Origin: Pseudomonadota bacterium
GTDB taxonomy: Bacteria; Pseudomonadota; Gammaproteobacteria; Burkholderiales; Rhodocyclaceae
DNA length: 51,046 nucleotides
Assembly (NCBI GenBank): GCA_021849505.1
Contig: JAJZSW010000011.1
Location: forward strand, 1 to 51,046
Direction of reading: 5' to 3'
In this document: in pieces, positions 2,308 through 50,940 of the stretch
Layout: the number at the start of each line of letters is the position of its first letter
How positions within the stretch are numbered: position 1 is the first letter of the stretch
Notes under the pieces: model-generated
The model's database searches: none
What the model was told of the DNA's origin: nothing
What the model saw: only the letters and a program-made list of their open reading frames with translations
Program-made: the position numbers and the translations under genes

Positions 2308-5058
2308 TCAATACTCGGCCCACTCGTCCGCTTCGTCATCGGCAAACCGGGCCGGCGGCAGGCGCCTGGCGACACCGGGTGAGCGCGCCGGCCGGGCGCG
2401 GACCGAAGCCCCCGCGGCTGCGGCAAAAGTCGGCGCCGGCAGGACGGCACCGCCGTCCAGCCGGAACATCGCGACGGCCTGGCGCAGGCCCTGCGCCTGC
2501 TCCTCGAGCGATTCGGCCGCCGCCGCGGCCTGCTCGACCAGCGCGGCATTCTGCTGGGTCACCTCGTCCATCTGCGAGACGGCATTCGAAACCTGTTCGA
2601 TCCCCGCGGCCTGTTCGCGGCTGGCCTCGGCGATGCCGCCGACGAGTTGCGCCAGCTGCTGGAAAGCCTCGACCACCGCGGTGATCGTTTCCCCGGTTTC
2701 ATGCACCTGCCGGGCGCCTGCATCGACCTTGTCGACGGATTCGGCGATCAGCGCCTTGATTTCCTTGGCCGCCGTCGCGCTGCGCTGGGCCAGGTTGCGC
2801 ACCTCGGTGGCCACCACCGCGAAGCCACGCCCCTGCTCGCCGGCGCGCGCCGCCTCCACCGCCGCATTGAGCGCCAGGATGTTGGTCTGGAAGGCAATGC
2901 TGTCGATCACCCCGACGATGTCGGCGATCTTCTTCGAACTGGCCTGGATGCCGCTCATCGTTGCCACAACCTGGCCGACCATCGCGCCGCCCCTGGCCGC
3001 CGCGCCGTTTGATTCGCGGGCTAGATCGGCCGCCTGCCGGGCCGTTTCCGCGTTGTTCCTGACCGTGCTGTTGAGCTGCTCCATCGAGCTCGCCGTCTCC
3101 TCCAGGCTCGACGCCTGCTCCTCGGTCCGGCTCGACAGATCCTGGTTGCCGGCGGCGATTTCCTTGGCGGCAGTGTTGATGGCTTCCGTCGCCGCGATGA
3201 TCTGGCCGACGACGTCGCGCAGCTGCGTCACCGTGGCGTTGGTATCGTTCTTCAGCTGTCCCAGTGTGCCGGCGTAATCGGCCTCGATCTGCCGCGACAG
3301 ATTACCGCCCGCAACTGCATTCAGAACGCGGGCGATATCGTCGAGGGACCGGGCGACGATGTCCGTCAGCTGGTTCATGCCGGTAGCCATTTCGTGGAAG
3401 AAACCCTGCATCGCGTCGGCATCGATGCGGCGGCTGAAATCGCCCTGCACGGCGGCGCCGAGCAGCTCCTTGAGTGCCTGTTCCGCCCGGACCTCCTGCG
3501 TGCGGTCGCGCCATTCCGCAACCGCCCCGAGGCGCTGGCCGGCCGGATCGATCACCGGGTTGGCCGCGACGGTCATGTGGCGCGCACCGATCTCCAGATG
3601 CGCGACATGCGTCCCGGTGAGTTCGGACAGCAGCTTGGCCTGGTGGGCCGGATGCTTGTGAAAGCTGTCGATGTTCGTGCCGACCAGCCGGTCCGCGTCG
3701 AAGGCCGGCAGCTGCCTGCGGATGTCGTCCTGCGCGCCGCGCAGCACGGCGACGACCGCCTTGTTCGCATAAATGACCTTGCGTTCGTTGTCGGCGATCA
3801 TCACGCCGGTGGAGACGTTGTCGAGCGCAATGCGGATACGCAGGTTTTCGGCGGCGGCGATGCGTTCGCGCTCGAGCGACTGATGCAGGTTCTCCTGCAT
3901 GCGGTTGACCGCCTGGCCGATCTGCGCAAGCTCGTCGTCGCCGGCCACGGTCACGGACTGCGTGAGGTCGCCGTTGGCAATCCGTTCCGCGCCGGCACGG
4001 ATGGCGCCGATCGCCTCCAGCAGGGCACGGCGGAACCCGAAATAGAGCAGCACCAGGATCGTCAGTGCCAGCGCGACGATCCCCAGCGTTACATTACGCG
4101 ACTGCACCTGGCTGTCGATGCGCATCTGCAATTGCCGATCGAACTCTTTCATCGTCACCTCGACGACGGCATAGCCGGTATCGACGGCTTGCGAGGCCAC
4201 TTCGAAGATCTTCGGCGGCGGAACGGCAATGGTCGCCGGATCGAGAATTTCCTTGTCGATCATATCGAGGAAATTCAGCGTGGCGGCAAGGAACTCCTTG
4301 CCGCCCGCATCGACGGCGGCCTTGATGCTGGCATCCTTTGCGCTCGCGCCGGCCAGATGTTCCTCGATCTCCATTCGGTTTTCCTCGATCGCGCGCCGCA
4401 GGATCATCAGGTCGACGCGCACCGTCCAGTCGAGTTCCCGCTTGGCCGCCGCGCCCGTGGTCAGGGCACGCGACAATCCGAGCGCCTCGACCATCTTCGG
4501 CAGATGGTCGGCGAAGACCGCCTGCAGGTAGTTGGTTGCGATCACGGGATCGAGCGCCGCGTTGGTGGCGGCCGCCACGGCGCCGATGTAATCCTGGATC
4601 CGCCCCACCAGCGCGCTGTGGCGTTTGAGGCTGTCCGGCGCAGGCAGCTGGAGTGCCTGGGCCTGCAATTCCGACCATTCGCCCTGCAGCGCATGCCATG
4701 CCTGGGCCTGCTTGGGCAGGGCTTCCGCGTGCTGCGCGGCAGCCCCGGCGGCGAGCGCCTTGCCGGCCGCCGCGGCAAACTCATCCATCTTCGCCTTGAG
4801 CTGCTGATTGCCGCCCAGCACGCCCTGGCTGGCGCCACGATGCCCCTGTACCGCACGCATCAGCTGCATGGCCGGGGCGATCAGGGGCGTCGCCAGCTTT
4901 TCGCGCTCGGAAAACGCGATCGTTTCGGCATAGCGTTGCAGCAGCGGAAACGCGACCACCGCGATGGTGATCAGGGCAAACAGTCCCATCAGCAGGATCT
5001 TGCCGGGTACGCTGAAGCGGTTGAGCAGGCTCTGGATCGGGGCGAGTATGCCGTTCAT
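2308..5058 (-). CDS. Methyl-accepting chemotaxis protein with PAS and double HAMP-like region
   Basis: The ATG at 5058 is preferred over the in-frame TTG at 5064 because AAAGGA lies 6-7 bases upstream of it, giving 916 residues. Domains in order: membrane segment at about 22-42, a ~280-residue sensor region of nitrate/nitrite-sensor (NIT) or four-helix style, membrane segment near 325-345, HAMP, a PAS domain, a second HAMP-like region, and a full MCP signalling domain with the hairpin core [20 protein letters not shown]. The C-terminal tail holds one copy of the dispersed 25-bp repeat, translated AVLPAPTF. The protein ends EWAEY, which fits the x-[HFYW]-x-x-[HFYW] pentapeptide that tethers CheR/CheB in some receptors. 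No cheR or cheB is in the window. The ligand is unknown. Confidence 0.9.
2426..2450 (-). repeat. Dispersed 25-bp repeat, copy 1 (in MCP tail)
   Basis: Core on the minus strand resembles GCCGTCCCGCCAGCGCCGAC with two changes. It is translated AVLPAPTF in the linker after the MCP signalling domain. Confidence 0.85.
2847..3164. repeat. Segment with identical blocks shared with 1-318
   Basis: Partner of the segment at 1-318: two exact blocks of 127 and 95 bp separated by a diverged stretch, as expected from gene conversion or a recent partial duplication between tandem MCP genes. Confidence 0.9.
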
Positions 5059-5092
5059 CGTCAATCCTTTACGGTGGGCAGGCGGGAGCGGG

Positions 5093-5599
5093 TCACGGGG
5101 TTTGCGCCGCTTCTTCGACCAGCGCCATTTCGCCGGACAGCATCAGCTTCTCGATATCGACGACGATCAGCATCCGTTCGCCGAGGGTGCCGAGCCCCTT
5201 GATGTAGCGCGTATCGACGGTTGCCGCGAATTCGGGCGCCGGGCGGATCTGGTCGGAGCGCAGGCTGGTGACGTCGGAGACGCCATCGACCACCATGCCG
5301 ACGACGCGCCCGCCGAGCGACAGGATGATGACGACGGTGAACGGCGTGTACTCGACCGTGCCGACCCCGAACTTGATGCGCATGTCGACGATCGGCACGA
5401 TGATGCCGCGCAGGTTGATGACGCCCTTGAGGAAGGCCGGCGCGTTGGCTATCGTCGTCGGCGGCTCGTAGCCGCGGATTTCCTGCACCTTGAGGATGTC
5501 GATCGCGTATTCCTCGGGGCCGAGGGTGAACGTCAGGAACTCCTGGGAGTACGCGCCTGCGTCGCCGGCAGCCTGTTGGGAATTGTTTTCCTGAACCAT
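5093..5599 (-). CDS. cheW: Chemotaxis coupling protein CheW
   Basis: A 168-residue CheW, the adaptor that joins MCP receptors to CheA in the cytoplasmic array. The start at 5599 (MVQENNSQQ) is chosen because AGGAGA lies just upstream; a longer reading from 5623 would overlap the end of cheA. The CheW fold covers most of the protein: [16 protein letters not shown] near the start, then [19 protein letters not shown], the receptor- and CheA-contacting strand typical of the family. It lies 20 bp after cheA and 34 bp before the MCP gene, so it is in one operon with both. Confidence 0.97.
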
Positions 5600-5619
5600 G
5601 CAGGTTCTCCTGTGAAGGG

Positions 5620-7791
5620 TCAAGCGGCGGCCGGCAGCGCGCGGCGCGCCATGTCGACCAGCATCGCGACATCGAGGATCAGTGCGACGCGGCCGTCGCC
5701 CATGATGGTGGCGCCGGAAACGCCGGAGACTTTCCGGTAATTGGTTTCGAGGCTCTTGATCACCACCTGGTGCTGGCCGACCATCGCATCGACGAACAGC
5801 GCGGCCTTGGTGCCGTCGGCCTCGAGGATGATCATGATGCCGTCCTCGAGTGCGGCAAGCGCGCCCGGCACCCGGAAGACCTCGTGCAGCGCGATGATCG
5901 GCAGGTACTCGTCGCGCACCTGCAGCAGCCGCTCGACGCCGGCGACGCTCTTGATCATGCCGGGTTCGGCCTGCAGGGATTCGATCACGTAGCCGAGCGG
6001 AATGATGTAGGTTTCCCTGCCCACCGCCACGGACATGCCGTCGAGGATCGCCAGCGTCAGCGGCAGGCGCACCGTCATGCGCGTGCCGATGCCGGCCAGC
6101 GAATCGATATCGACGCGGCCACCCAGCGCGGTAATGTTCTTCTTCACCACGTCCATGCCGACGCCGCGACCCGACACTTCGGTGATCCGGTCGGCGGTCG
6201 AGAAGCCGGCCTCGAAAATCAGCGCGAAGACCTCCTGGTCGGTCATCTGGTCGTGCACGCCGAGCCCGCGTTCCCTGGCCTTGGCGAGGATCTTGTCACG
6301 CGGCAGGCCGGCGCCGTCGTCGCCGACCTCGATGACGACATTGCCGCTCTGGTGATAGGCGGACAGCGTGATCGTGCCGACTGGCTGCTTGCCCTTCGCT
6401 GCACGCACCTCCGGCAGCTCGATGCCGTGGTCGAGGCTGTTGCGCACGAGGTGGGTGAGCGGATCGGTGATGCGCTCGATCAGGCCCTTGTCGAGCTCGG
6501 TGTTTTCGCCGGAGAGTTTCAGTTCGACCTGCTTGCCGAGCTTCTGCGAGATGTCGCGCACCACGCGCGGGAAGCGCGAGAAGACCACCGACATCGGCAT
6601 CATGCGGATCGACATCACGGATTCCTGCAGGTCGCGCGTATTGCGCTCGAGCTGGATCAGGCCGTTGTGCAGGCGCTCGAACTCGACCGGATCGATCTGG
6701 GCGGCGGACTGCGCGAGCATCGCCTGGGTGATGACCAGTTCGCCGACCAGGTTGATCAGCTGGTCGACCTTGTCGACACCAACCCGGATGGTGGTATCGC
6801 CGGCGGCCGGTCTGGTCGCCGCCGGCGCTGCCGGCACGGTCCGCGCTTCCTTCCTTGCCGGCGGCGGTGCGGGTGCGGGCGACGGCTCGGGCAGGGGCTC
6901 GAAGAAGCCGTAGGACTCGTCCGCCGGCGCCGCCGGCGGGACCTCCGGGAGCGGTGCGAAGAAGCCGTAGGCGTCGTCGGCCGCTGCTGCTGCTGGCGGG
7001 GCAGCCATCTCGGGCAGAGGATCGAAGAACCCGTAGGCGTCATCGCTCGCGGTGGCGGGGGCGGGAGCACTGAAGAAGCCATAGGCGCCATCCGGCGCAT
7101 CGGCCAGGACCGCGGCTTCCGCGTCCGCCGTACCGAGGGGCACGATGCGGATGCTGTCGTTGCGGGCGACGAACTCGAGCAGGCCGCGCAGCAGTTCGGG
7201 GTCGGCGGCGCCGCTCAGGCGCACATGCCAGGGCTGGCCGGGAACGGCCGGCGCTGTCGCCGCGCGCAGTTCGCCATGCGTTGCGAGTTCAGCCTTGAGG
7301 TTCTCGAACGTCGTTGCGCCCGCGCCGCCTTCAAGCAGGAAATACAGGTCGAACCCGGCCGCGGGCGTGGCGGCCTGGAAAGTCGGCGCTGGCGGGACGG
7401 CACCTGCTTCGGTCAGTTGCCGCAGCCGTTGGCAGATCGCGTCGGCGGCAACCCGGTCGGCCTCGCCCTCCCCCTGATGCGCGGCGAGCAGGTTCTTGAG
7501 CACGTCCCCGGCATCGAGGAAGGCGTCGATCATGGCGTTGCGCAAATGCAGTTCGCCCTTGCGCACGCGGTCGAGCAGGTTTTCGAGGATGTGGGTGACG
7601 TCCTGCAGGTCGGTGAAGCCGAAGGTGCCGCTCGAGCCCTTGATCGAATGCGCGGCGCGGAAGATCGCGTTGAGCTGCTCGGCGTCCGGGTCGGCGATGT
7701 CCAGGCCCAGCAGCAGGTTTTCCATGCTGGCCAGATGCTCGGCGGTCTCCTCGAAAAAGACCTGATGGAACTGGCTCATGTCGATGGACAT
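5620..7791 (-). CDS. cheA: Chemotaxis histidine kinase CheA
   Basis: This 723-residue CheA passes phosphate from receptors to CheY. The P1/HPt domain is at the N-terminus with the phospho-accepting His48 in [15 protein letters not shown] small alpha/beta domain at about 135-215 is probably P2-like. Then comes a long Ala/Pro linker, the P3 dimerisation domain, the ATPase domain (N-box [15 protein letters not shown]-boxes DDGAGL and GRGVGMDVV) and a C-terminal CheW-like P5 domain. Between P1 and the P2-like domain sits repeat copy 2 (AVPPAPTF). The linker also carries four short repeats of the form AYGFF-x-PLPE. The ATG at 7791 has GGAGG about 5 bases upstream. Confidence 0.97.
6894..7092 (-). 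repeat. Four-fold YGFF peptide repeat in the CheA linker
   Basis: The linker between the P2-like domain and P3 encodes YGFF four times at intervals of about 16-22 codons, three of them followed by x-PLPE and preceded by Asp/Glu. The spacers are Ala/Pro-rich. Confidence 0.85.
7379..7403 (-). repeat. Dispersed 25-bp repeat, copy 2 (in cheA)
   Basis: Exact match to the consensus (core GCCGTCCCGCCAGCGCCGAC on the minus strand), translated AVPPAPTF between the P1 and P2-like domains of CheA. Confidence 0.92.
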
Positions 7792-7825
7792 GGCGCCTCC
7801 TTGCGCAAGCCGGGCGCGGCCGCGT

Positions 7826-8191: not shown

Positions 8192-8207
8192 GGGGTGCGC
8201 TCCTGTT

Positions 8208-9557: not shown

Positions 9558-10508
9558 TTATCCGGGTGCTGGCGGCGCGGCTGGCGGGGCGGCGCGCACG
9601 CCCGGCTGCAAGGTTTCCGTCACCGTCTCGACGGGCACCTCGCGGCCGTCGCTGAGGATGGCCTCCTCGGTACGCTTGTTGAGGACGACGATGCTGATGC
9701 GCCGGTTGATCGGGGCGGTCGGCTGCGCCTTGTCGAACAGCACGGTCGAGGCAAATCCCACGACGCGCATGACCTTCTTGTCGTCGAGTCCGCCGAGCAC
9801 CATCTCGCGCCGCGAGGCGTTGGCGCGGTTGGTCGAGAGTTCCCAGTTGCCGAAGCCCCGGTCGCCGCCGGCATAGGGCGTGGCGTCGGTATGGCCGGAG
9901 AGGGAGATGCGGTTCTCGACCTTGTTGAGCAGCGGGCCGATCTCGCGCAGGATCACCCGGGTATAGGGCTTGAGCTCGGAACTGGCGGAATCGAACATCG
10001 GCCGATTCTGCTCGTCGACGATCTGGATGCGCAGGCCTTCGCTGGTGATGTCGAGCAGCATCTGGTTCTTGAACTGCTTGAGCGCCGGACTCGCCTCGAT
10101 GAGCGCCTCGATGTCGCCCTTGAGGCCTTCGAGGCGCGCCTTTTCAATTTTCTCGAAATCGGCCTTGAGCGCCTGCAAATTGATTTTCTTGCTCGGCGCA
10201 TCGACCTCGCCCTCCTTCACCTGGCCATGCGTGCGCGTAAGGTCCTGGCCGCCCCCCTGGATCACGGACGAAGAATCGCCCGTGCCGGAGCCGCCGAGGA
10301 GCGCCACCTTGAGCGGCGTCTGGAAATAGTCGGCGATGCCCTTGAGGTCGCCCTTGGTCGTCGAACCAAGCAGCCACATCAGCAGGAAGAAGGCCATCAT
10401 CGCCGTCACGAAGTCGGCGTAGGCGATCTTCCAGGCGCCGCCGTGCGCCGCGCCGCCGCCCTTCTTGATCTTCTTGACTACGATTGGCTGCTGGCTGTCG
10501 TCGCTCAT
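9558..10508 (-). CDS. motB: Flagellar motor stator protein MotB
   Basis: A 316-residue stator subunit. After a basic N-terminus comes one membrane segment starting WKIAYADFVTAMMAFFLLMW, in which Asp32 is the proton-conducting residue. A periplasmic linker and an OmpA-like peptidoglycan-binding domain follow (SGHTDATPY near 205, then NWELSTNRA and NRRISIVV). It should form the torque-generating stator with MotA, encoded 60 bp upstream. The gap between the two genes contains a copy of the dispersed repeat, and no clear ribosome-binding site is visible at the ATG. Confidence 0.96.
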   Translation of the reverse strand: MSDDSQQPIVVKKIKKGGGAAHGGAWKIAYADFVTAMMAFFLLMWLLGSTTKGDLKGIADYFQTPLKVALLGGSGTGDSSSVIQGGGQDLTRTHGQVKEGEVDAPSKKINLQALKADFEKIEKARLEGLKGDIEALIEASPALKQFKNQMLLDITSEGLRIQIVDEQNRPMFDSASSELKPYTRVILREIGPLLNKVENRISLSGHTDATPYAGGDRGFGNWELSTNRANASRREMVLGGLDDKKVMRVVGFASTVLFDKAQPTAPINRRISIVVLNKRTEEAILSDGREVPVETVTETLQPGVRAAPPAAPPAPG

Positions 10509-10522
10509 GGCTGGTCAGGGCA

Positions 10523-10547
10523 AAAGTCGGCGCCGGCGAGACGGCAG
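10523..10547 (-). repeat. Dispersed 25-bp repeat, copy 3 (between motA and motB)
   Basis: An intergenic copy with three differences from the consensus, in the same sense as motA-motB transcription. It occupies about half of the 60-bp gap. Confidence 0.85.
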
Positions 10548-10568
10548 GCGGCGGTCCTTATTAGCCCC

Positions 10569-11426
10569 TTATTTTCCTTTTCTTGCCTTGATATCCTCTT
10601 CGAGCTCGGTGAAGCTCGGCCGATCGCCGGAATAGAGAACCTTGCGGCCGAATTCGATCGCCACCTGCGGCGCATAGCCATTCATGCTGGCGAGCAGCAC
10701 GGCCTTGATCACGTGATAGATCTTGCTGCCCTCTTCCACCTTCTGGTTGAGCCGGTTGGCGATCGGCTCGACGAAACCGTAGGCCAGCAGGATGCCGAGG
10801 AAGGTGCCGACCAGGGCGCCGCCGATCATCTTGCCCAGCACGGCCGGCGGTTCGCCGACCGAGCCCATGACGTTGACCACGCCCATCACCGCCACGACGA
10901 TGCCGAAGGCGGGAATCGCGCCGGCGGTGGTCTGCACCATGTGCGCGGGGAAATGCGCCTCGGCATGATGGGTTTCGATCTCGATATCCATCAGGTTTTC
11001 GATCTCGAAGGCGTTGAGATTGCCGCCGACCATCATGCGCAGGTAGTCGCAGACGAACTCCATTACGTGATGATCGGCCTGTATCGACGGATACTTCGAA
11101 AAGATCGGACTGGCCTCGGGATTCTCGACGTCGTTCTCGATCGACATCAGGCCTTCCTTGCGCACCTTGGCGAGGATCTCGAACAGCATGGCCAGCAGAT
11201 CCATGTAGACGGCCTTGTTGTACTTGTCGCCCTTGAGTGCGGCGGGAATCGCGCCGAAAATGGCTTTCAGGGAACGCGGCCCGTTCGAGCCGACCAGATA
11301 GCCGATGGTCAGACCGAAGATGGCGACATATTCCAGCGGCACCCACAGGGCGCCAAGGCTGCCGTGAATGGCATAGGTGCCGACCGAGGACAGCAGGACA
11401 ATGACGTAGGCGATGAGCAGAAACAT
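10569..11426 (-). CDS. motA: Flagellar motor stator protein MotA
   Basis: A 285-residue MotA of usual length with four membrane segments: two near the N-terminus, then a large cytoplasmic loop, then two at about 170-225 (AGAIPAFGIVVAVMGVVNVMG and IGGALVGTFLGILLAYGF). The conserved prolines of the channel helices (AIPAFG and GEPPAVLG) are present. With MotB it makes the proton-driven stator. It lies downstream of flhC but is separated from it by a strong terminator, so it should have its own promoter in 11427-11532, where I could not assign one with confidence. Confidence 0.96.
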   Translation of the reverse strand: MFLLIAYVIVLLSSVGTYAIHGSLGALWVPLEYVAIFGLTIGYLVGSNGPRSLKAIFGAIPAALKGDKYNKAVYMDLLAMLFEILAKVRKEGLMSIENDVENPEASPIFSKYPSIQADHHVMEFVCDYLRMMVGGNLNAFEIENLMDIEIETHHAEAHFPAHMVQTTAGAIPAFGIVVAVMGVVNVMGSVGEPPAVLGKMIGGALVGTFLGILLAYGFVEPIANRLNQKVEEGSKIYHVIKAVLLASMNGYAPQVAIEFGRKVLYSGDRPSFTELEEDIKARKGK

Positions 11427-15300: not shown

Positions 15301-16011
15301 TCAGTCTTCGACCTCGAATACCACCGGCAACAAAACGGCAAACTCCTGGCCGCGCAGCGACTCCGGCAAGGTGGTACGCGCGGCGGCGGCGCGCAGCATA
15401 TCGAGCGCGGCCGTGTCGAGAATTGCGTGGCCGCTCGAACGCGCCAGTTCCGTCTGTCGCGGTGCGCCCGCAGCGACGCTGACGCGCACCTCGGCGGTGC
15501 CGGCCATGCCTGCGCGCCGCGCCGTTTCGGGATAGCTGCGAAAGCGCCGCGCCTCTCCGGCGAGGGCCAGGCGGTATTGGCGCAGGCCGGCGGCATCCGG
15601 GCCGCGCTCGCTGAGCGTGGCCATCGCGACCGTGACCGGCTCTGGCGCGAAGCGGGCAAAGGGGACGCCGCCCACCGCCTCGCTCGGAACCACGGCGGGT
15701 GCCACGACCAAACTCGGTGCTGGCGGGACGGCATCCGCTGCCGCAGGCGCGGGCGCGATCACGGCCGCCCGGCGCTGCAGGGCCGGCGCGGCACGCGGCA
15801 CGGGTGCGGCAGCGCCGGTCACCGCCTCCGGAGCAGCGCGCAGTTCGGCACGCAAGGGCGCTGCGGGCGGCACCCCGGCCAGTTCGGCCAAGGGCACGCC
15901 GGCGAACATGCCCAATGCCAGCGCATGCAGCGCCAGGGAGCCGGCCAGCGCGCGCCAGGGAACTCCGCTGCTTTCGTGGGTTTTTTCCGGTTGCCGGGAT
16001 AAACTAAACAT
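15301..16011 (-). CDS. TonB-family energy transducer-like protein
   Basis: This 236-residue protein has a basic N-terminus, one membrane anchor at about 24-42 (LAGSLALHALALGMFAG), a long Ala/Pro-rich stretch, and a C-terminal TonB-like domain with YPETARRAGMAGTAEVRVSV and the later DTAALDMLRAA helix. The His in the anchor (LALHALAL) matches the functional His of TonB anchors. It could energise TonB-dependent receptors such as the one at 24017-26032, but no exbB/exbD is adjacent, so the pairing is inference. Its linker includes a copy of the dispersed repeat (AVPPAPSL). Confidence 0.85.
   Translation of the reverse strand: MFSLSRQPEKTHESSGVPWRALAGSLALHALALGMFAGVPLAELAGVPPAAPLRAELRAAPEAVTGAAAPVPRAAPALQRRAAVIAPAPAAADAVPPAPSLVVAPAVVPSEAVGGVPFARFAPEPVTVAMATLSERGPDAAGLRQYRLALAGEARRFRSYPETARRAGMAGTAEVRVSVAAGAPRQTELARSSGHAILDTAALDMLRAAAARTTLPESLRGQEFAVLLPVVFEVED
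15710..15734 (-). repeat. Dispersed 25-bp repeat, copy 4 (in TonB-like gene)
   Basis: Three differences from the consensus; translated AVPPAPSL in the Pro-rich linker of the TonB-like protein. Confidence 0.85.
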
Positions 16012-26130: not shown

Positions 26131-31189
<5,059 letters not shown>

Positions 31190-34929: not shown

Positions 34930-36258
34930 TCACTGATCGTTCTTCTGCCGCTTGCGGTACTGCGCGTCGAGGGCGCGCAGGTGCGCGAGCTTTTCGCCGA
35001 TCTTCTGTTCGAGTCCGCGCGGCGTCGGCTGGTACCACGCCACCTTGGGCATGCCTTCGGGAAAGTAGCTCTCTCCGGCCGCGTAGGCTTCCGGTTCGTC
35101 GTGTGCGTAGCGGTATTCGCTGCCGAAGCCGAGTTCCTTCATCAGCTTGGTCGGCGCGTTGCGCAGGTGCTCGGGCACCGGCCGGCTCTGATCCTTGCTG
35201 ACGAAGCGGCGCGCCGCGCCGTAGGCCACGTAGCCGGCATTCGACTTCGGCGCCACCGCCATGTAGATCACCGCGTTGGCCAGCGCCAGTTCGCCCTCGG
35301 GCGAGCCGAGCCGCTCATAGGTCTGTGCCGCCTCCAGCGCGATCGTCAGCGCGCGCGGGTCGGCGAGGCCGATGTCCTCGCTGGCCATGCGGATGATGCG
35401 CCGCGCGAGGTAGAGCGGGTCGGCGCCGCCGTCGAGCATGCGCGTGAACCAGTAGAGCGAGGCGTCGGGATTCGAGCCCCGCACCGACTTGTGCAGCGCC
35501 GAGATCTGGTCGTAGAAGGCGTCGCCGCCCTTGTCGAAACGGCGCAGGTCGGAGGCCAGCGCCTGCTCAAGAAAGTCGGCGCTGACGAGACGGCACTCCG
35601 ACGCCTGTGCGGCCGTGCGCAGGGTCTCCAGCACGTTCAGCAGTCGGCGTGCATCGCCGTCGGCGTAGCCCACCACGCGGTCGATCGCCTCCGGCTCAAA
35701 CTCCAGATCGGGGAAGGCATGGTCGTGGGCGCGCTGATACAGCTCACGCAGTTCGTCCGCCGCGAGCGGCTTGAGTACATACACGGCGGCGCGCGAGAGC
35801 AGCGCCGAATTCACCTCGAACGAGGGATTTTCGGTCGTCGCGCCGATGAAGGTCAGCAAACCCTGCTCGACGAAGGGCAGGAAGGCATCCTGCTGCGCCT
35901 TGTTGAAGCGGTGCACCTCGTCGACGAACATCAGCGTGCGCCGCCCGGACTGCGCCAGCGTCAGTTGTGCCTGTTCGACGGCGGCCCGGATGTCCTTGAC
36001 GCCCGAGAACACGGCAGAGAGGGCGATGAACTCGGCGTCGAAAGCGTCCGCCATCAGCCGCGCCAGCGTGGTCTTGCCGACGCCCGGCGGCCCCCAGAGA
36101 ATCATCGAATGCGGCGTCTTCGACTCGAAGGCCAGCCGCAGCGGCTTGCCCGGCCCGAGCAGGTGCTGCTGGCCGATCACCGCGTCGAGCCTCGCCGGGC
36201 GAAGTTGCTCCGCCAGCGGAGCGTGGGGGTTGGCTGCCTTGAACAGGTCGTCGGACAT
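34930..36258 (-). CDS. rarA: Replication-associated recombination protein A (AAA+ ATPase)
   Basis: A 442-residue RarA/MgsA. It starts MSDDLFKAANPHAPLAEQLRP and has Walker A GPPGVGKTT, Walker B LMFVDEVHRF, sensor 1 FIGATTENPSFEVN, and the family C-terminal region FYDQISALHKSVRGSNPDASLYW and KSNAGYVAYGAA. It acts at stalled replication forks. The stop codon lies 4 bp from the convergent small gene. Codons around 35572-35596 match the dispersed 25-bp repeat at 23 of 25 positions, in a different reading frame from the other coding copies, without any visible length insertion. Confidence 0.96.
   Translation of the reverse strand: MSDDLFKAANPHAPLAEQLRPARLDAVIGQQHLLGPGKPLRLAFESKTPHSMILWGPPGVGKTTLARLMADAFDAEFIALSAVFSGVKDIRAAVEQAQLTLAQSGRRTLMFVDEVHRFNKAQQDAFLPFVEQGLLTFIGATTENPSFEVNSALLSRAAVYVLKPLAADELRELYQRAHDHAFPDLEFEPEAIDRVVGYADGDARRLLNVLETLRTAAQASECRLVSADFLEQALASDLRRFDKGGDAFYDQISALHKSVRGSNPDASLYWFTRMLDGGADPLYLARRIIRMASEDIGLADPRALTIALEAAQTYERLGSPEGELALANAVIYMAVAPKSNAGYVAYGAARRFVSKDQSRPVPEHLRNAPTKLMKELGFGSEYRYAHDEPEAYAAGESYFPEGMPKVAWYQPTPRGLEQKIGEKLAHLRALDAQYRKRQKNDQ
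35572..35596 (-). repeat. Dispersed 25-bp repeat, copy 6 (in rarA, other frame)
   Basis: Two differences from the consensus. It is translated CRLVSADF, a frame unlike the other coding copies, in a stretch that looks like normal RarA sequence. It could be a converted or chance-similar site. Confidence 0.6.
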
Positions 36259-36344
36259 GATGCGCCAATGATAAACCCGCCCCACCTGCCCACCCGCCGT
36301 GGGGTAAAGTGCGCGGAGCATTCCTGACAGTCCGGACCCCACCC

Positions 36345-36785
36345 ATGCAAGATCCTGCCGGCATCGCCAGCGTTTCCCACGTCATCCAGCTCGCGGTGGC
36401 GCCCGTGTTCCTGCTGACCGGCGTCGGCGCGATCCTCTCCGTGCTCATCAACCGCCTCGCGCGCGTCGTCGATCGCTTTCGCACGCTCGAATGCGAGCTG
36501 CAGAAATCCGTGGAAACGGCGGTTCCCGTGATCAAGGGAGAGATGAACCGGCTTTCGCGCCGGGCACGCATGATCCACTGGTCCATCGGCCTCTGCACGA
36601 GCTGCGCGCTGTTCGTCTGCCTCGTCATCGGCCTGATGTTCTTCGGCTCGGTCATCGGCGCGAACCTCTCGACCGCCATCTCCGTCCTGTTCATCGTGGC
36701 CATGCTGACCCTCATCGCCGGCCTGCTGTGCTTCCTGCGCGAAATCACGCTGGCCCGCAGCAGCATCCACGTCCTGCCGCGCTAA
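36345..36785 (+). CDS. DUF2721-type small membrane protein
   Basis: A 146-residue protein starting at ATG 36345 (MQDPAGIASVSHVIQLA); 12 extra residues from 36309 are possible but lack support. Three hydrophobic segments at about 13-33, 78-100 and 105-128 and the motif VFLLTGVGAILSVLINRLARVVDR fit the DUF2721 family of inner-membrane proteins, whose function is not known. It is divergent from rarA and followed after 43 bp by a LysE-type gene, with a repeat copy in the gap. Confidence 0.85.
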   Translation: MQDPAGIASVSHVIQLAVAPVFLLTGVGAILSVLINRLARVVDRFRTLECELQKSVETAVPVIKGEMNRLSRRARMIHWSIGLCTSCALFVCLVIGLMFFGSVIGANLSTAISVLFIVAMLTLIAGLLCFLREITLARSSIHVLPR

Positions 36786-36787: not shown

Positions 36788-36812
36788 GTGCCGTCCCGCC
36801 AGCGCCGACTTT
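36788..36812 (+). repeat. Dispersed 25-bp repeat, copy 7 (intergenic)
   Basis: Exact consensus copy starting 3 bp after the DUF2721 stop codon, filling most of the gap to the LysE-type gene, in the sense of transcription. Confidence 0.92.
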
Positions 36813-36828: not shown

Positions 36829-37449
36829 ATGTTCGACATCCAGAACTACGCCAGCTTCCTGATCGCGATCCTGATCTTCCAGCTCGTGCCGGGGCCCGGC
36901 ACGATCGCGATCCTCAACGCCACCGCGAAGAACGGACTCGGCGCAGGCTTCGGAGCGGTGCTTGGAACACTGTTCGGCGACTTCATCTTCATGGTAGCGG
37001 CGGTACTGGGTCTTGCCGCGGTGATGCAGGCCAACCCGCTCCTGTTCGAAGCCCTGCAGTGGTTCGGCGCCGCCTACCTGGCCTGGATCGGCATCCAGCT
37101 GCTGCGCACGCGCTGCGCCGACCAGGCTGATGAGACTGAGCAGCGGCGTACCGGCTGGGTCTATTTCCGCCAGGCCTGCGCGGTGAGCCTGACCAATCCG
37201 AAGGTGATCCTGTTCTTCGTCGCCTTCTTTCCGCTCTTCCTGCGCGCCGACGCCTCCGGCGGCACGCTCGTCGCGATGATGGCGCACGTCACGCTGCTGA
37301 GTTTCCTGTATCAGGCCGGGCTGGTGCTGGTCGGGAATGCCGTCGCGCTGCGCCTCAAGGCCTTTCCCTTCGCGCGCCGGCTGGCGACCCGGCTGGCGGG
37401 CATTGCACTGATCGGTTTTGGCTTCAAGCTGGCCGCCAGCAACCGCTAG
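36829..37449 (+). CDS. LysE/RhtB-family amino-acid exporter
   Basis: A 206-residue inner-membrane protein with about six hydrophobic segments and the family signature near the N-terminus (LVPGPGTIAILNATAKNGLGAGFGAVLGT) plus SLTNPKVILFFVAFFPLF in the middle. LysE/RhtB proteins export amino acids or related solutes; the substrate is not evident. Its end lies 10 bp from the convergent lolA gene. Confidence 0.92.
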   Translation: MFDIQNYASFLIAILIFQLVPGPGTIAILNATAKNGLGAGFGAVLGTLFGDFIFMVAAVLGLAAVMQANPLLFEALQWFGAAYLAWIGIQLLRTRCADQADETEQRRTGWVYFRQACAVSLTNPKVILFFVAFFPLFLRADASGGTLVAMMAHVTLLSFLYQAGLVLVGNAVALRLKAFPFARRLATRLAGIALIGFGFKLAASNR

Positions 37450-42187: not shown

Positions 42188-42207
42188 ACTTGTGGCTGGA
42201 GATGTCC

Positions 42208-43395: not shown

Positions 43396-43407
43396 CTGCC
43401 GAAAGCC

Positions 43408-43432
43408 GTGCCGTCGCGCCAAGACTGACTTT
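43408..43432 (+). repeat. Dispersed 25-bp repeat, copy 8 (degenerate, after AAA ATPase)
   Basis: 20 of 25 positions match the consensus; it begins 13 bp after the ATPase stop codon, in the sense of transcription. Confidence 0.6.
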
Positions 43433-43444
43433 CCCCCACCTGAC

Positions 43445-43461
43445 TGCGACAAACTGTCGCG
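43445..43461. promoter_or_regulatory. 17-bp dyad upstream of the ABC/metal locus
   Basis: TGCGACA-AAC-TGTCGCG is a near-perfect 7-3-7 inverted repeat, 58 bp upstream of the first gene of the locus. A related dyad occurs at 46634-46650. The hairpin lacks an immediate T-run, so an operator is more likely than a terminator. Confidence 0.5.
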
Positions 43462-43468
43462 CTACTCT

Positions 43469-43496
43469 TTGATCCAATCGGTGGTTTTTTTATTTA
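43469..43496 (+). promoter_or_regulatory. Candidate sigma-70 promoter of the ABC/metal locus
   Basis: TTGATC and TATTTA are separated by 16 bp, ending about 22 bp before the first gene and directly after the 17-bp dyad. Confidence 0.4.
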
Positions 43497-43518
43497 CGTT
43501 GCAGCAACATTCCGCCCC

Positions 43519-45630: not shown

Positions 45631-46631
45631 TTTTCCAGCCGGCGATCATCGCGTTACTCCTCGCGGCGGGCATCAGCCTCTTCATGCTGCTCGCCGCGGC
45701 GCCCTTCGCCGTGCGGGTGATCCGCCACTGGGACGTCGCCAGTGGCAGCGAGCGGCAACTGCAGCTGGAACGCCTGACCTACCTGTTCTCGACGCTGGTC
45801 GCCTTCGTCTGCCTGGTGCAGATCCTCGCCGCCTTGCTGTTCGTCTTCAACGCCGACAAGATGTCGGTCATGTTCGTCGGCGCGATGTGCGCGGTCGGCG
45901 CGCTCAACGTCAATGCCTTCGGCTTCCCCGCGCTCTACGCCCAGCTCGCCCTGTTCTTCCTCGCGACGCTGTGGCTGGCGATCAACCACGTCGACAGCCG
46001 CGCGCGCGACTACCCGCTGGTGCGGCTCAAGTACGGCCTGCTGCTGGCGGCGATCCCGCTTTTCGCACTCAGCCTGTACTTGCAACTCCAGTACTTCCTC
46101 GGCCTCAAGGCCGACGTCATCACCTCCTGCTGCGGCAGCATGTTCTCGGAGCAGGCGTCCACGCTGGCCAGCGAGGTCAGCGCCCTGCCCCCCAAACCGG
46201 CGCTCATCGGCTTCTATGGCGGGCTGTGCGCCGCCATCGGCATTTCCATTTGGCACTGGCTGCGCCCGCGCGACGGCAGCGGCTACCTGACGGGCATCGG
46301 CGCGCTCGCCGGGTTCGGCGCCGCGCTCGCCGGCATCCTCGCCTTCGTCTCGCTCTACATCTACGAGCACCCGCACCACCACTGCCCGTTCTGCATCCTC
46401 AAGCCGGACTATGCGTACCAGGGCTACTGGCTCTACATCCCGCTGTTCACCGGCGCGGCGGCGGGCATGAGCGCCGGCGTGCTGCGCCTGTTCTCGCGCC
46501 GGCCGACCCTCGCGCCGATCATCAATATCACCTCGCGCGCGCTCGCCGGCGTGGCCGCCGTTGGCTTCGGCCTGTTCCTCGCCGTCGCGACCCTCATGAT
46601 CTGGCGCTCGAACCTGATCCTTTTGGACTGA
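45627..46631 (+). CDS. Polytopic membrane protein with CCGS and HHHCPFC motifs
   Basis: A 334-residue protein starting at GTG 45627, which overlaps the ATPase stop; the same frame runs open upstream but inside the ATPase gene. Eight or so hydrophobic segments span the length. Two Cys clusters lie in loops: DVITSCCGSMFSEQ near 170 and EHPHHHCPFCILKPDY near 255. Paired Cys with adjacent His suggest metal binding or a thiol redox role at the membrane surface. I do not recognise a named family. Translational coupling to the ABC genes suggests one machine. Confidence 0.8.
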   Translation: MIFQPAIIALLLAAGISLFMLLAAAPFAVRVIRHWDVASGSERQLQLERLTYLFSTLVAFVCLVQILAALLFVFNADKMSVMFVGAMCAVGALNVNAFGFPALYAQLALFFLATLWLAINHVDSRARDYPLVRLKYGLLLAAIPLFALSLYLQLQYFLGLKADVITSCCGSMFSEQASTLASEVSALPPKPALIGFYGGLCAAIGISIWHWLRPRDGSGYLTGIGALAGFGAALAGILAFVSLYIYEHPHHHCPFCILKPDYAYQGYWLYIPLFTGAAAGMSAGVLRLFSRRPTLAPIINITSRALAGVAAVGFGLFLAVATLMIWRSNLILLD

Positions 46632-46633
46632 GA

Positions 46634-46688
46634 TGCGACAATCTGACGCATTCCCCTCCCGCAACGGTCGCAGTACATTGGCTGCGAC
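46634..46688. promoter_or_regulatory. Two dyads upstream of the small membrane protein gene
   Basis: TGCGACA-ATC-TGACGCA at 46634-46650 is an imperfect relative of the dyad at 43445-43461 with the same 7-3-7 spacing. GTCGCAG-N8-CTGCGAC at 46667-46688 is a perfect 7-bp inverted repeat. Both fit in the 80-bp gap before the next gene, which suggests an internal promoter. Confidence 0.45.
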
Positions 46689-46711
46689 TATTGAGCGCAG
46701 GAGAAACCATC

Positions 46712-46894
46712 ATGAGCAGCCAATCGCATACCAAGCCGTCCAATCCCCCGGAAATGGCGTCGCTGCTGCTGGGTGCGGGCTTCGCCCTGGCTTCCCTGAT
46801 CCTGCTGCCCGCCGTCGCCCAGAAGATCGGCATGGGTTCCAGCCTGACGATCGCGCTGCGCGGCGCCCTGATGCGCGCCGCCAGCCGCTTCTAA
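46712..46894 (+). CDS. Small single-span membrane protein
   Basis: A 60-residue protein starting at ATG 46712 with AGGAG 8 bases upstream. The hydrophobic segment at about 17-35 (LLLGAGFALASLILLPAVA) is followed by a short basic tail ending MRAASRF. It has no cysteine or histidine cluster apart from one N-terminal His. It is not a known family to me. Its end coincides with the place where the TlpA-like reading frame begins, so its C-terminus may be affected by the frame problem described for that gene. Confidence 0.65.
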   Translation: MSSQSHTKPSNPPEMASLLLGAGFALASLILLPAVAQKIGMGSSLTIALRGALMRAASRF

Positions 46895-47376
46895 GCCTTT
46901 TCCTCCCGTTCGCGTTCGCGGGGTTCGTCGCCGCCTGCGGCGAGCCGCCGGCGAACCTCAACATCGGCAACCCCGCCCCGGCGTTCAAAACCACGCAACT
47001 TGACGGGGCGGCTGTCGACTTCCCCGCCACCTACGCCGGCACGCCGCTCGTCCTGCGTTTCTGGGCCGACTGGTGCAAATTCTGCGAGCCGGAAATGAAG
47101 CTCATCGACGCGGTGCGTCTGCGCCACGGCGAGCGCTTCGCCGTCCTCGCCGTCAATGCGGGGCAGGACAAGGCCACGGTGGCGTCCTTCATGAACAGGC
47201 TCGGCGTCGGCTATCCGGCCGCGCTGGATGAAAGCTCGAAGATCGCCAAGTCCTATGGCGTCGTCGGCCTGCCGACGACCTTCCTGATCGACGGCCAAGG
47301 CGTCGTGCGCGGCAAGATCGTCGGCGAAACCGACGCGGCGATGCTCGAACGGCATGTGCAAACGCTGCTGAAATGA
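46888..47376 (+). CDS. TlpA/thioredoxin-like lipoprotein lacking a normal start codon
   Basis: The readable frame ends at 47376 and encodes a lipoprotein-type leader (LLSLFLPFAFAGFVAAC, lipid Cys codon at 46936) followed by a thioredoxin fold with active site WADWCKFCEPE and cis-Pro GLPTTF. No ATG, GTG or TTG lies at a sensible position; the nearest in-frame TTG and ATG are at 46678 and 46633, before a non-membrane sequence. The ATG at 46871, one frame away, would give an ideal leader MRAASRLLSLFLPFAFAGF if base 46888 were read twice. So a single-base deletion, a sequencing error, a frameshift or a non-canonical start is likely. The next gene overlaps the stop (ATGA). Confidence 0.8.
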   Translation, partial: LLSLFLPFAFAGFVAACGEPPANLNIGNPAPAFKTTQLDGAAVDFPATYAGTPLVLRFWADWCKFCEPEMKLIDAVRLRHGERFAVLAVNAGQDKATVASFMNRLGVGYPAALDESSKIAKSYGVVGLPTTFLIDGQGVVRGKIVGETDAAMLERHVQTLLK

Positions 47377-47561
47377 TTCCCTGCGACCTCTGCGCCCTCG
47401 ACTGCGGCAGCCAGCCATTCACGCTCGACACACCGGGCGGGACGCTCAACTTCTGCTGCGCAGGCTGTCGCGGCATCTACGAAATGTTGAACGAAATCAA
47501 TTCCCCGCCAGCCGATCAGGCGCAAAATGCGCCGAACTCAACCGAAAGGAAAACCCCATGA
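47373..47561 (+). CDS. Stand-alone Cys-rich metal-binding domain protein
   Basis: A 62-residue protein: CDLCALDC near the N-terminus and FCCAGCRGIYEML in the middle. This resembles the N-terminal metal-binding domain found fused to CcoI/FixI-type P1B ATPases, where a C-x2-C pair is followed by a CC-x-GC motif. Here the domain is free and the ATPase lies three genes downstream without it. It is translationally coupled to the TlpA-like gene (ATGA) and overlaps the next gene by 4 bp. Metal delivery to the ATPase is inferred. Confidence 0.8.
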   Translation: MIPCDLCALDCGSQPFTLDTPGGTLNFCCAGCRGIYEMLNEINSPPADQAQNAPNSTERKTP

Positions 47562-47923
47562 ACACTCCGATGATGGAAGCCGGGCGCCAGATGCCGCACA
47601 TGATGGGCAACATGATGTCCCATCCGATGGCCACCGGCACGATGATGGCCGCGGGCGGCTTCGCGGCCGGCAAGGGGCTGCTCGGCGCCGGCACGAGCCT
47701 GCTGCGCAATCCGCTGGTCTTTCTCGCCGCCGGTGTCGCCGCCGGTTACCTGCTGTTCAAGTACGAGAAGGAGATCATCGAGGCCGCCAGCAAGCTGACC
47801 GGCATGGGCAAGGACTTCGCGCTGCACCAGAAGGAAAACCTCGACGACCTGCTCGCCGAGACCCAGGGGCCCGATTCAACCGCGCCCGCGGCGGCGGCCG
47901 TGACATCGCCCACACAGGGCTGA
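47558..47923 (+). CDS. Met/His-rich small membrane protein
   Basis: A 121-residue protein. The first ~35 residues hold ten or more Met plus several His (MPHMMGNMMSHPM), a composition known to bind Cu(I) in copper proteins. A glycine-rich stretch and one hydrophobic segment follow at about 50-67 (NPLVFLAAGVAAGYLLF), then KYEKEIIEAASKL and a low-complexity tail. It resembles in layout the small membrane chaperones next to P1B ATPases (PacL-like, DUF5132-like) but I cannot assign it to one. The position just before the HMA-like and ATPase genes supports a metal role. Confidence 0.75.
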   Translation: MNTPMMEAGRQMPHMMGNMMSHPMATGTMMAAGGFAAGKGLLGAGTSLLRNPLVFLAAGVAAGYLLFKYEKEIIEAASKLTGMGKDFALHQKENLDDLLAETQGPDSTAPAAAAVTSPTQG

Positions 47924-47930
47924 AGCCGCG

Positions 47931-48494
47931 ATGGATGCCTCGGCAATCCAGGTCCTGCAGCGCGCGGATGGCTACCTGCGCCTGCGCCTGCCCGCCCCCC
48001 TGCGCAGCCCCGAAACCGGCGCGGCGCTCGAAAGCAGCCTGCGGGCGCTGCCGGGCGTCGTGCGCACGAGCTGGCTGACGGTCGAAGGCAAGCTGGCCGT
48101 GCGTTTCGACCCGCAGCGGCTGACGCATGCCGATGTCGCGCGACGCATCAAGGCGCTGCTTCCCGCCCCTGACCTTGAACCGCAAGCCGCCGCGCAGGTG
48201 GAACCCGCGCCGCCGCCGGACGAACCGACCGCCGTGGGCCCGGCCGAACGGCTCGAGGACCTGCGCGCCAAGCTGATCGCCGCCGCGCCGGAGCGCTTCC
48301 GCCCGCTGGTTGAAAGCGCCACGACCGAGAAGGCGGTCACCAATTTCTTCAACGACATCGTCGCCTTCTACCTGATCAAGACCCACTGGGACCTGATCGT
48401 CAATCGCTGGATCAAGGAGCCGGTGAAGTACGGCAACGCCTGGCTCACGGTGTTCTACCTCGTCTTCCTGCTGGTGCGCTACCGCAAGTCGTGA
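47931..48494 (+). CDS. HMA-like domain membrane protein
   Basis: A 187-residue protein. The N-terminal ~75 residues ([37 protein letters not shown]) resemble a ferredoxin-like HMA domain of the HMA_2 type, without the CxxC metal site. A Pro-rich linker follows, then a C-terminal part with [20 protein letters not shown] and a final membrane segment ending LVRYRKS. The same degenerate fold begins the ATPase encoded 7 bp downstream, so it may dock with or regulate that pump. Confidence 0.78.
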
Positions 48495-48501
48495 CAGCTT
48501 C

Positions 48502-50940
48502 GTGAAGCACTACCGCATCGTTCATCGCCTGCCCTGGCGCATCCGGATCATCGCGCCGCCGCTGATCCGGCAGGCCGAACGCTGCTACCTACTCGAAATC
48601 CTGCTGCGCAAGCATGCCGCGATCCGCGCCGTGCGCGCCGTCCAGGACATCGGCTCGGTGACGATCCAGTACGACGCGGCGCAATTGCCCGAAGCGCGCC
48701 TCGTCGCGCTGATCGACGCGGTGATCGGCAACCTGGCGCGGGCCGCCCGGAAGAGTGCCGTCTCGCCAGCGCCGACTTTCGTACCAGATCCCAACCAACC
48801 GGTGCAGGAATGCCTGGCGGCCGTCGAAGGCATGACCTGCGCTTCCTGCGCCGCGCTGATCGAACTCTCGCTCAAGCGCGATCCGCGCGTCGCATCCGCC
48901 GCCGTCAACTACGCTGCCGAGACGGTGACGGTGAAGGGTTATTTGTCGAAGAGCGAGCTGTTCGAAACCGTCCGGAAGCTGGGCTATGAGGCGCGGCCGA
49001 TGGACACGCTGGCGCAGCGCCGCCTGCTCGTCGAGCGCGAGAAGGCACGGCTGGATGAGGCGCAACAGCGCCTGCTGCGCGCCGCCATCGCGAGCGTGCC
49101 CGTGATGATCTCCGGCATGCTGATGCACCGCTCGCCGGCGCTGCGCGTGATGGAGCTGGCGCTCTCCACCTACGTGGTCGCCGGCCCCGGCGGAAACATC
49201 TTCAGGAAGGCCTGGGCGCTCGCGCAGCAGCGCGAGGCGAACATGGACACGCTGATCGCGATGGGCGCCGGCGCGGCCTGGCTCTACAGCCTGCCCGGCG
49301 TGCTGCGCATGGAACACCACGTCTATTTCGAATCGGCCGCGGCGATCCTCGCCTTCGTGCTCGGCGGCCGCTACATGGAGGAGCGGGCGAAAGGCAAGGC
49401 GTCGGAAGCGATCCGCAAGCTCATCGAGTTGCAGCCCGACACGGCGATCCGCGTCACGGATGCCGGCGACGAAACGGTGAACATCGACGCCGTGCGCGTC
49501 GGCGACATCCTGCGCGTGCGCCCCGGCGACAAGGTGCCGACCGACGGCATCGTGCTGGCGGGCGGATCGTCACTCGACGAATCGCTGCTCACCGGCGAGC
49601 CGCTGCCGGTGGCGAAAGCGGCGGGCGACAAGGTGGTCGGCGGCACCTTGAACGGCAACGGCTCATTCACGCTGAAGGTGACGGCGATCGGCACGGAAAC
49701 CGTGCTCTCCGGCATCGTCAAGCTGGTCGACCATGCGCAAGGCAGCAAGCTGCCGGTGCAGAAACTCGCCGACCGCATCTCGGCGCGCTTCGTGCCCGCC
49801 GTCGGCGCCGTCGCCGCCGCCACCTTCGCCGGCTGGCTGCTGGCCGGCCATCCGCTCGCGCGTTCGCTCTCGCACGCGGTGGCCGTGCTCCTGATCGCCT
49901 GCCCCTGCGCGCTCGGCCTCGCGACGCCCACCGCGATCATGGTCGGCACCGGCCAGGCGGCGCGGCGCGGCATCTACATCCGGAACGGGGAAGCGCTCGA
50001 AACCGCCGCCACGCTCGACACGCTGGTGTTCGACAAGACCGGCACCATCACCGCCGGACATCCCTCGGTGACCGACCACCTGCCAGCGGCGGGAATCGAC
50101 GAGGCGCGGCTCCTCGCCCTCGTCGCGGGCGTCGAGCAGCATTCCGAGCACTTCCTCGCCCGCGCGCTGACCGCTTACTGCGCCGCGCGTGCCGTCCCGC
50201 CAGCGCCGACTTTCGGCTTCCAGGCAACCCCGGGGCTCGGCGTGCAAGCCGACAGCGACAGCGGCATGATCCTGATCGGCAACGCCGCGTATCTGGAAAA
50301 GGCCGGCATCGACTGCCGTGCCCAGCAGGCGCAGGCGGACGCCCTCGCCGAGCAGGGCAAGACCCCGGTCTTCGTCGCCCTCGACGAGCGCTGTGTCGCG
50401 CTGTTCGCCATCGCCGACGCGCCGCGCGCGGGCGCGCGGGAAGCCATTGCGCTGCTGCACCAGCTCGGTCTCAAGACCATCATGTGCACCGGCGACGTGG
50501 CGGCCGCCGCGCGCCATGTCGCCCGCGAGGTCGGCATCGACGAAGTGATCGCGCGCGCCACGCCCGCCGACAAGCTCGCGCTGGTCGAACGGCTCAAGAG
50601 CGCAGGCCGCAAGGTCGGCATGATCGGCGACGGCATCAACGATGCGCCGGCGCTCGCGGCGGCGGCGGTCGGCTTCGCCATCGGCGGCGGCGCCGACATC
50701 GCCGTCGAAGCGGCCGACGTCACGCTGGTCGGCGGCGACATCGCGCGCGTCGCGGGCGGCATCGACCTCGCGCGCCGCACCATGGCCATCGTGCGCCAGA
50801 ACCTGTTCTGGGCGCTCGGCTACAACGTCGTCGCGATTCCCTTCGCCGCGGCCGGCCGGCTCAACCCGATGATCGCGGCGGCGGCGATGGCGCTCTCCTC
50901 GGTGTCGGTGGTCAGCAACTCGCTGCGCCTGCAAAAATAG
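48502..50940 (+). CDS. P1B-type heavy-metal transporting ATPase
   Basis: An 812-residue pump with a GTG start at 48502. A degenerate HMA_2-like domain (1-75) is followed by repeat copy 9 (AVSPAPTF), a normal HMA domain with GMTCASC near 110, membrane segments, Cys467-Pro-Cys469 ([11 protein letters not shown]), phosphorylation site Asp511 in DKTGT, a nucleotide-binding domain, and [13 protein letters not shown] with a CxxC HMA domain favours Cu(I)/Ag(I). Two oddities sit in the nucleotide-binding domain: the usual SEHP motif reads SEH550-F551, and repeat copy 10 is inserted in the following loop (AVPPAPTF). It is probably co-transcribed with the small metal proteins upstream. Confidence 0.95.
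48755..48779 (+). repeat. Dispersed 25-bp repeat, copy 9 (P1B ATPase, between HMA domains)
   Basis: One difference from the consensus; translated AVSPAPTF between the degenerate and the intact HMA domain. Confidence 0.92.
50189..50213 (+). repeat. Dispersed 25-bp repeat, copy 10 (P1B ATPase, N-domain loop)
   Basis: Exact consensus copy, translated AVPPAPTF, in the loop between the SEHF helix and the FQATPGLGV strand of the nucleotide-binding domain. Confidence 0.92.

Follow-up and report, generated by a model that had tools for sequence, protein, structure and literature searches.

The window, that is the whole stretch of 51,046 nucleotides that was analysed, is contig C160 of a 2.75 Mb MAG (161 contigs, 94% complete), which we refer to as G000. 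Its genes were called with a simple gene finder based on codon-usage scores and do not come from a published annotation. The products of five of the six genes of interest here were examined with Pfam, which identifies a methyl-accepting chemotaxis protein, a CheA-type kinase, a radical SAM protein, a RarA/MgsA-type AAA ATPase and a P-type ATPase that has an HMA domain. A short sequence recurs in these genes and between others; the initial annotation placed it in six genes and three or four gaps, and the gene calls give seven copies in six genes and three copies in gaps, as follows.

2426 to 2448, minus strand: copy with 2 mismatches, sense, within the methyl-accepting chemotaxis protein gene (2308-5064, minus strand)
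7379 to 7401, minus strand: exact copy, sense, within the CheA-type kinase gene (5620-7791, minus strand), translated as AVPPAPTF
10523 to 10545, minus strand: copy with 2 mismatches, in the gap between the minus-strand genes 9558-10508 and 10569-11426 (motB/motA-like by eye)
15710 to 15732, minus strand: copy with 2 mismatches in the 20-base core, sense, within a gene of about 200 amino acids (15301-15909, minus strand)
28077 to 28099, minus strand: exact copy, antisense, close to the 3' end of the radical SAM gene (26131-28149, plus strand)
35572 to 35594, minus strand: copy with 2 mismatches, sense, within the rarA/mgsA-type gene (34930-36321, minus strand), translated as CRLVSADF
36790 to 36812, plus strand: exact copy, in the gap between genes 36345-36785 and 36829-37449
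43410 to 43432, plus strand: copy of the ACTGACTTT dialect (5 mismatches relative to the main dialect), located in the gap 43396-43518
48757 to 48779, plus strand: copy with 1 mismatch, sense, within the P-type ATPase gene (48502-50940, plus strand)
50191 to 50213, plus strand: exact copy, within the same P-type ATPase gene (48502-50940, plus strand)

The initial annotation described ten scattered copies, four of them exact and most of the others with one to three mismatches. All ten places do carry the sequence and four copies are exact, but the 20-base core GCCGTCCCGCCAGCGCCGAC is found at up to three mismatches in nine of them only: five of the six inexact copies have one (one copy) or two (four copies) mismatches, while the tenth, at 43410 on the plus strand, has five and fits a second dialect, which ends in ACTGACTTT. 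At up to three mismatches the core is expected 0.10 times in the window, based on 100 dinucleotide-preserving shuffles, none of which reached nine copies. The consensus unit in this genome is (g)T-GCCGTC-YY-GCCAGCGCCGAC-TTT-y, where y is c or t, and contains about 35 bits; the profile, built from 86 of the 87 copies found in 451 kb (the window and 20 stretches of 20 kb), is flat on both sides of the motif. The copies occur in several frames, in antisense and in gaps, which rules out a repeated protein linker of the AVPPAPTF type.

In the whole assembly, the motif is found 556 times at up to three mismatches (260 forward, 296 reverse) against 10 matches for the reversed pattern that served as a control (4 and 6 by strand), so that the copies are not confined to the window. 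At up to four mismatches, the 451 kb of own DNA contain 87 copies of the 23-mer and the reversed control gives none. Together with the shuffles, these controls rule out chance or base composition.

The distribution of the motif along a chromosome was studied in a closed genome, G080, from 40 evenly spaced stretches of 20 kb. The number of copies per stretch has a variance of 3.31 for a mean of 3.98, that is, it is no more variable than expected from a Poisson distribution, and the copies are not clustered. The bias relative to replication that the initial annotation proposed to look for is absent: in the 800 kb covered, out of 2.74 Mb, and with strands assigned by smoothed skew, 78 copies are on the G-rich (leading) strand and 81 on the other (lagging) strand (p = 0.87). 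Such an unclustered, genome-wide distribution, with a density that is similar across several genera, would be compatible with a site that is used in chromosome maintenance and selected at each place, whether Chi-like, KOPS-like, matS-like or recognised by a nucleoid or partition protein. Chi, KOPS and matS are short oligonucleotides that occur genome-wide in genes and gaps, as the motif does, but the motif differs from them in being longer (sites of these types are mostly shorter) and in having no replication-strand bias; the even split between strands speaks against this explanation, and a strand-biased site is ruled out for the sampled genome G080.

Three of the 40 stretches of G080 are devoid of any copy: one is the rplA-rpoBC-fusA region (ribosomal and RNA-polymerase genes), and the two others are prophages of the tailed-phage type, with genes for terminase, portal, head and tail. 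The 40 kb of the two prophage stretches contain no copy where about 8.6 are expected, in one genome and in stretches chosen after they were seen to be empty. With the same post hoc choice, the probability that two given stretches are both empty by chance is about 2 in 10,000 (Poisson estimate, from the 159 copies in the other 37 stretches). The annotation was limited to these three stretches; the others were checked solely for relatives of the proteins of the two prophages, and there are none in the other stretches sampled from G080 and G000. The two empty prophage stretches also speak against a chromosome-maintenance site.

In both G000 and G080, most copies are within genes, in sense and in antisense, chiefly in four of the six frames, two frames being nearly avoided. 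They are also enriched in gaps: 32 of 87 copies in G000 and 50 of 159 in G080 are outside any single called gene, whereas 87% of the bases are called coding. The density in gaps is 1.02 copies per kb between convergent genes, 0.50 in tandem gaps and 0.28 between divergent genes, and in tandem gaps 37 of 50 copies are closer to 3' ends. This would suit a regulatory element or a terminator whose copies in genes are by-products, an explanation which we consider very unlikely. Indeed the majority of the copies are within genes, those in tandem gaps have about equal orientations (27 versus 23), no hairpin is detected beyond chance (z of 0.21 and 0.23 for the two strands), no inverted pair of motifs is found within 200 bp, and Rfam gives no match at the copies of the window. 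An uptake signal would also be expected to avoid promoter gaps. In the window, Rfam matches nothing but a tRNA, which rules out an RNA element.

The motif is also present by the hundreds in relatives, the closest of which are 84 to 85% identical to the window's genome in aligned stretches. We scanned 395 genomes of the family (68 genera) with the 23-mer at up to three mismatches. A count of 100 copies or more is reached by 54 of them, from six genera: 18 of 19 in g1, 21 of 22 in g2, all 4 in g46, all 9 in g64, and the single genomes of g9 and g38; dialect carriers in two further genera come in addition. The looser pattern GCCGT-N12-GACTTT adds 13 of the 16 genomes of g11, with 177 to 466 copies (the remaining three have 48, 24 and 5), and gives 101 copies in G045 (g45), with G023 (g23) and G149 (g66) below, at 87 and 63. 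Beyond these ten genera of the family, the maximum is 16 (G056), the reversed control giving at most 8 per strand. Among 386 genomes sampled from other families of the order, the maximum is 18 (G475, control 2) and the next values are 8 or less, with a control that reaches 24 in one genome. In G475, from family f38, two of the five matches listed for this pattern are near the main dialect, which may reflect import, contamination or a weak system. As for the exact motif, at least 100 stretches of named genomes contain it, and among the 80 listed, 77 are from Rhodocyclaceae or Sulfuritalea MAGs, relatives from which we infer that the window's genome belongs to the Rhodocyclaceae; the three others have one exact match apiece, in Tepidicella xavieri, a Sideroxyarcus MAG and a Burkholderiales MAG. 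A viral collection gives five exact matches, which were counted only. A contig of that collection (L001:883-2238) carries five copies on one strand, spaced three times by 316 bases and once by 385, in a tandem repeat-like arrangement.

Certain members of carrier genera are nearly devoid of the motif (0 copies in G247, 5 in G155, 25 in G242), and the motif is absent from the 40 kb of G247 that were read in search of a dialect. In a tree of the RarA protein from 28 genomes, the carriers do not form one clade. The genera g1, g2, g9, g45, g46 and g64 group with G023 and G149, while g11 is across the drawn root, beside the five other sampled genera, and G247 is on a long branch; the carrier label needs 5 changes (mean of 8.4 when shuffled), and the starred branches force at least 4. 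The sites common to g11 and g1 suggest that the motif has a single origin, followed by losses, although the RarA tree does not show it.

The motif is not the same in all carriers. In six genomes of four genera, the profiles contain 29 to 35 bits, for 21.0 to 27.5 copies per 100 kb; those of G148 and G069 come from 23 and 21 copies, respectively, and refinement on own matches exaggerates uniformity. When sites are located without using the position that is scored, position 5 is T in 74 of 76 copies in G000 and 127 of 134 in G080, and C in all 40 in G260. Under the same procedure, the base preceding GCC is T in G000 (69 of 76) and G080 (128 of 134), and C in G260 (35 of 40), G069 (12 of 13), G148 (8 of 10) and G010 (29 of 30). 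G260 is partly mixed, with T in 4 of 15 listed places, the list being ranked by likeness to the T form. In G010, which belongs to g11, de novo k-mer enrichment in 200 kb led to a related signal ending in GGGACTGACTTTT, and G045 has a form with GCGTCGACTTT. The position matrix of G023 did not converge (883 matches, 44 in the control) and was left out. Further dialects are likely in g1 and g2, for instance in G320, G256, G305 and G385, which have many matches with three mismatches and few with GCCGT-N12-GACTTT.

The genome of the window itself contains a minority of copies of the ACTGACTTT, g11-type, dialect, including 43410-43432 in the window, L162:12556, L164:8223 and L168:7383; the search for ACTGACTTT in 451 kb of own DNA gave 12 loose matches, some of which are main-dialect copies with one change. 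At L162:12556, the window's genome has the ACTGACTTT form where G080 has the main dialect at the orthologous site, as if a change of dialect were unfinished. Dialects that differ between members of one genus set the motif apart from Chi, KOPS and matS and, like its near-absence from single members of carrier genera, speak against a chromosome-maintenance site. Combined with the empty prophages, this makes us regard a role of the motif in chromosome maintenance as improbable.

The comparison of orthologous sites shows that dialects change in place. Of the 11 sites covered between G000 and G080, nine have a recognisable motif, one of which is partial. Between G080 and G260, 8 sites are aligned across the motif, which is kept at 5, always with the base of G260 at position 5; between G000 and G260, 2 sites are covered, and the one that keeps the motif also has the base of G260. 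Thus all 6 retained sites of G260 have C where G080 or G000 has T. Four sites are covered when G000 or G080 is compared to G010, and the 2 that keep the motif are both in the g11 (ACTGACTTT) form. One orthologous site is present in three dialects, in G000, G260 and G023.

These sites also tell how copies come into being. Many near-identical copies, in excess in gaps when compared with the coding fraction, could be those of a mobile or amplified repeat (REP, MITE or palindromic element) that inserts copies of itself; like the motif, REP and BIME are short, dispersed and present in many copies. Among 52 anchored pairs of orthologous sites, 15 (12 sites) have a target without motif, and none of these 15 has lost 23-25 bp: the net change in length is 0 in 6 and within 6 bp in 9, the rest being -14, -18, -19, -50, -66 and -72. 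When the target has the motif, the length is unchanged in 22 of 37 pairs, the others ranging from -54 to +33. Since empty orthologous sites mostly keep their length, we conclude that the motif arose by substitution.

The copy within rarA, which is in frame in a conserved protein, leads to the same view. The ortholog was found in 28 of the 30 genomes searched (none from G038 and G084). Most carriers have the motif at this site, often decayed (2 to 7 mismatches), and it follows the dialect of each genome: GCCGC...GAGTTT in G260, AGCGTCGACTTT in G045, and GCTGACTTT in both G010 and G208, from which the form in G073 differs by one base. The site has neither motif nor indel in G005, G018, G042, G057 and G016, which have few or no copies genome-wide, in the motif-poor G247 and G155, and in G023 despite its 87 loose copies; in the motif-poor G242 it is decayed, with 5 mismatches. 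In contrast with REP and BIME, the motif has no dyad, is not inserted and is mostly within genes. That motif-less sites are mostly unchanged in length, that dialects change at fixed sites, that the rarA copy is read as part of a conserved protein and that hairpins do not exceed chance make a mobile repeat hardly credible, and an insertion element is ruled out by the site lengths, the absent hairpin and the rarA site. The initial annotation had noted that the copies lack a long dyad and do not look like REP or MITE elements; the absence of insertion at orthologous sites bears it out.

We argue that the motif belongs to the DUS/USS kind of DNA uptake signals and that biased natural transformation maintains it, which, from the sequence comparisons above, appears quite probable. 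Among known systems, it is a transformation-maintained uptake signal that combines high abundance, copies on both strands, origin by substitution, dialects that shift together and empty prophages. This is the kind of signal that the density in the window had brought to mind in the initial annotation, and the abundance of the motif, its presence in relatives, the near-zero controls and the lack of strand bias in the sampled closed genome all support this interpretation. The existence of dialects, their change in place, the two empty prophage stretches and the origin by substitution argue for an uptake-type signal over another address tag. Several features that are general to uptake signals are found here: excess abundance, dispersal, both strands, origin by point mutation, dialects, and genes of the machinery (ComEC and N-methyl pilins).

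Passages of Frye 2013 (PMC3630211) describe the DUS of Neisseriaceae as present in many copies, with dialects at the level of lineages, one genome with two dialects and relatives without any; the motif resembles it in being abundant, in having lineage dialects, two of them in the window's genome, and in being absent from relatives. According to the same passages, CTG at +6 to +8 and A at +10 are invariant across DUS dialects (PMC3630211). In contrast, when the motif is placed in the register of GCCGT, position +8 in the window's genome is C in 74%, T in 23% and G in 2% of the copies, and +10 is C in 90%; in the other five genomes G at +8 does not exceed 7% and A at +10 does not exceed 5%. The g11 form does hold CTGA, but further along than the DUS register. 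The motif is also 23-25 bp long, with information over about 24-25 positions, whereas a DUS has 10-12 bp; it is found in another family, and its density is about one copy per 4 to 5 kb. We conclude that the motif is not a DUS: it lacks the invariant CTG and A at the corresponding positions, and its length is double that of a DUS. The string TGCCGTC is presumably common to the motif and AT-DUS.

Like the USS of Pasteurellaceae, the motif has a strong core with a wider conserved context, dialects and a high copy number, but it is GC-rich, has conserved blocks at both ends and belongs to an unrelated family. The USS core, which we take to be AAGTGCGGT, is absent by eye from the consensus of all six genomes, although the reverse complement of the motif starts with AAAGTCGGC, which resembles AAGTGCGGT and is one base short. 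The motif is therefore not a Haemophilus-type USS, since the core differs. So far as sequence can tell, it would work like both systems.

Regarding the machinery, ComEC_Rec2 is present in all 25 genomes examined, including that of the window (on C145) and the motif-poor G247, G155 and G242, and N-methyl pilins are present in all 10 genomes examined; natural competence of the carriers is inferred from such genes. Irrespective of whether they carry the motif, 72 of 78 genomes encode a minor pilin that matches the Pfam family ComP_DUS; with 62 of 68 genera having it, this family is ruled out as a marker of carriers. In the window's genome, the matching gene is of the pilE type, and its sequence relatives with solved structures are ordinary pilins. 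It opens a minor-pilin operon that adjoins an ispH-like gene and continues with a GspH-family (FimT/FimU-like) pilin and then pilV-, pilW- and pilX-like genes, the likeness to ispH, pilV, pilW and pilX being judged by eye. Inspection by eye of the N-methyl pilins in 10 genomes, and of 17 pilin regions, revealed no carrier-specific pilin. For the USS, passages of PMC12616744 mention a FimT-like minor pilin, PpdA/ComN, as the proposed receptor.

In the mechanism that we propose, the DNA-uptake machinery would include a receptor with a preference for fragments that bear the motif; the likeliest candidate is one of the minor pilins of the type IV pilus. The preferred fragments would recombine into the chromosome, so that copies born by point mutation would spread, and be repaired, from cell to cell; no copy would need to transpose. 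If the specificity of the receptor drifts, the whole genomic set would follow, which would give one dialect per lineage.

Several observations are against an uptake signal. ComEC and the ComP_DUS pilin are also found in non-carriers, so that, at this level, the motif does not vary along with the machinery. G247, G155 and G242 have ComEC while being nearly motif-free. The density is several times lower than in Neisseria. The post hoc choice of the prophage stretches, the lack of a recognised carrier-specific receptor, the scatter of the carriers on the RarA tree and the motif-less rarA site of G023 also count against it. G247, G155 and G242, which retain ComEC, are natural cases for the search of a lost receptor by gene content.

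Passages of PMC12616744 discuss uptake signals for Neisseriaceae and Pasteurellaceae, and we found no earlier report of such a signal in Rhodocyclaceae or Betaproteobacteria among the papers listed from the open-licence PubMed Central literature, preprints excluded. We are inclined to think that self-DNA recognition in transformation evolved independently a third time, in environmental Rhodocyclaceae, where it would rely on a long signal with two rigid end blocks, GCCGY and GANTTT, and a dialect-specific middle. Lineages would become separate DNA-exchange groups as hundreds of sites are replaced throughout the genome, the window's genome still having a minority second dialect. If this is true, the origin of uptake specificity becomes testable with new replicates within one environmental family, as do the way hundreds of sites shift together upon a change of receptor and the idea that dialects are species barriers. 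Many uncultured Rhodocyclaceae would be predicted to exchange DNA via transformation, and adding the motif to DNA would provide a practical handle for genetics in this family.

Last, we note that de novo k-mer searches in 100 kb of each genome gave nothing clear for G042 and G057. In G005 (L196-L200), whose genus is without the motif, we see by eye a REP-like repeat around TGTGGGAGCGGCGG, with about 10 copies per 100 kb. In G018 (L201-L205), 22 copies of 12-mers overlapping as GTGAAAACTAAGCCCTGCC in 100 kb look, by eye, like a CRISPR-like array.
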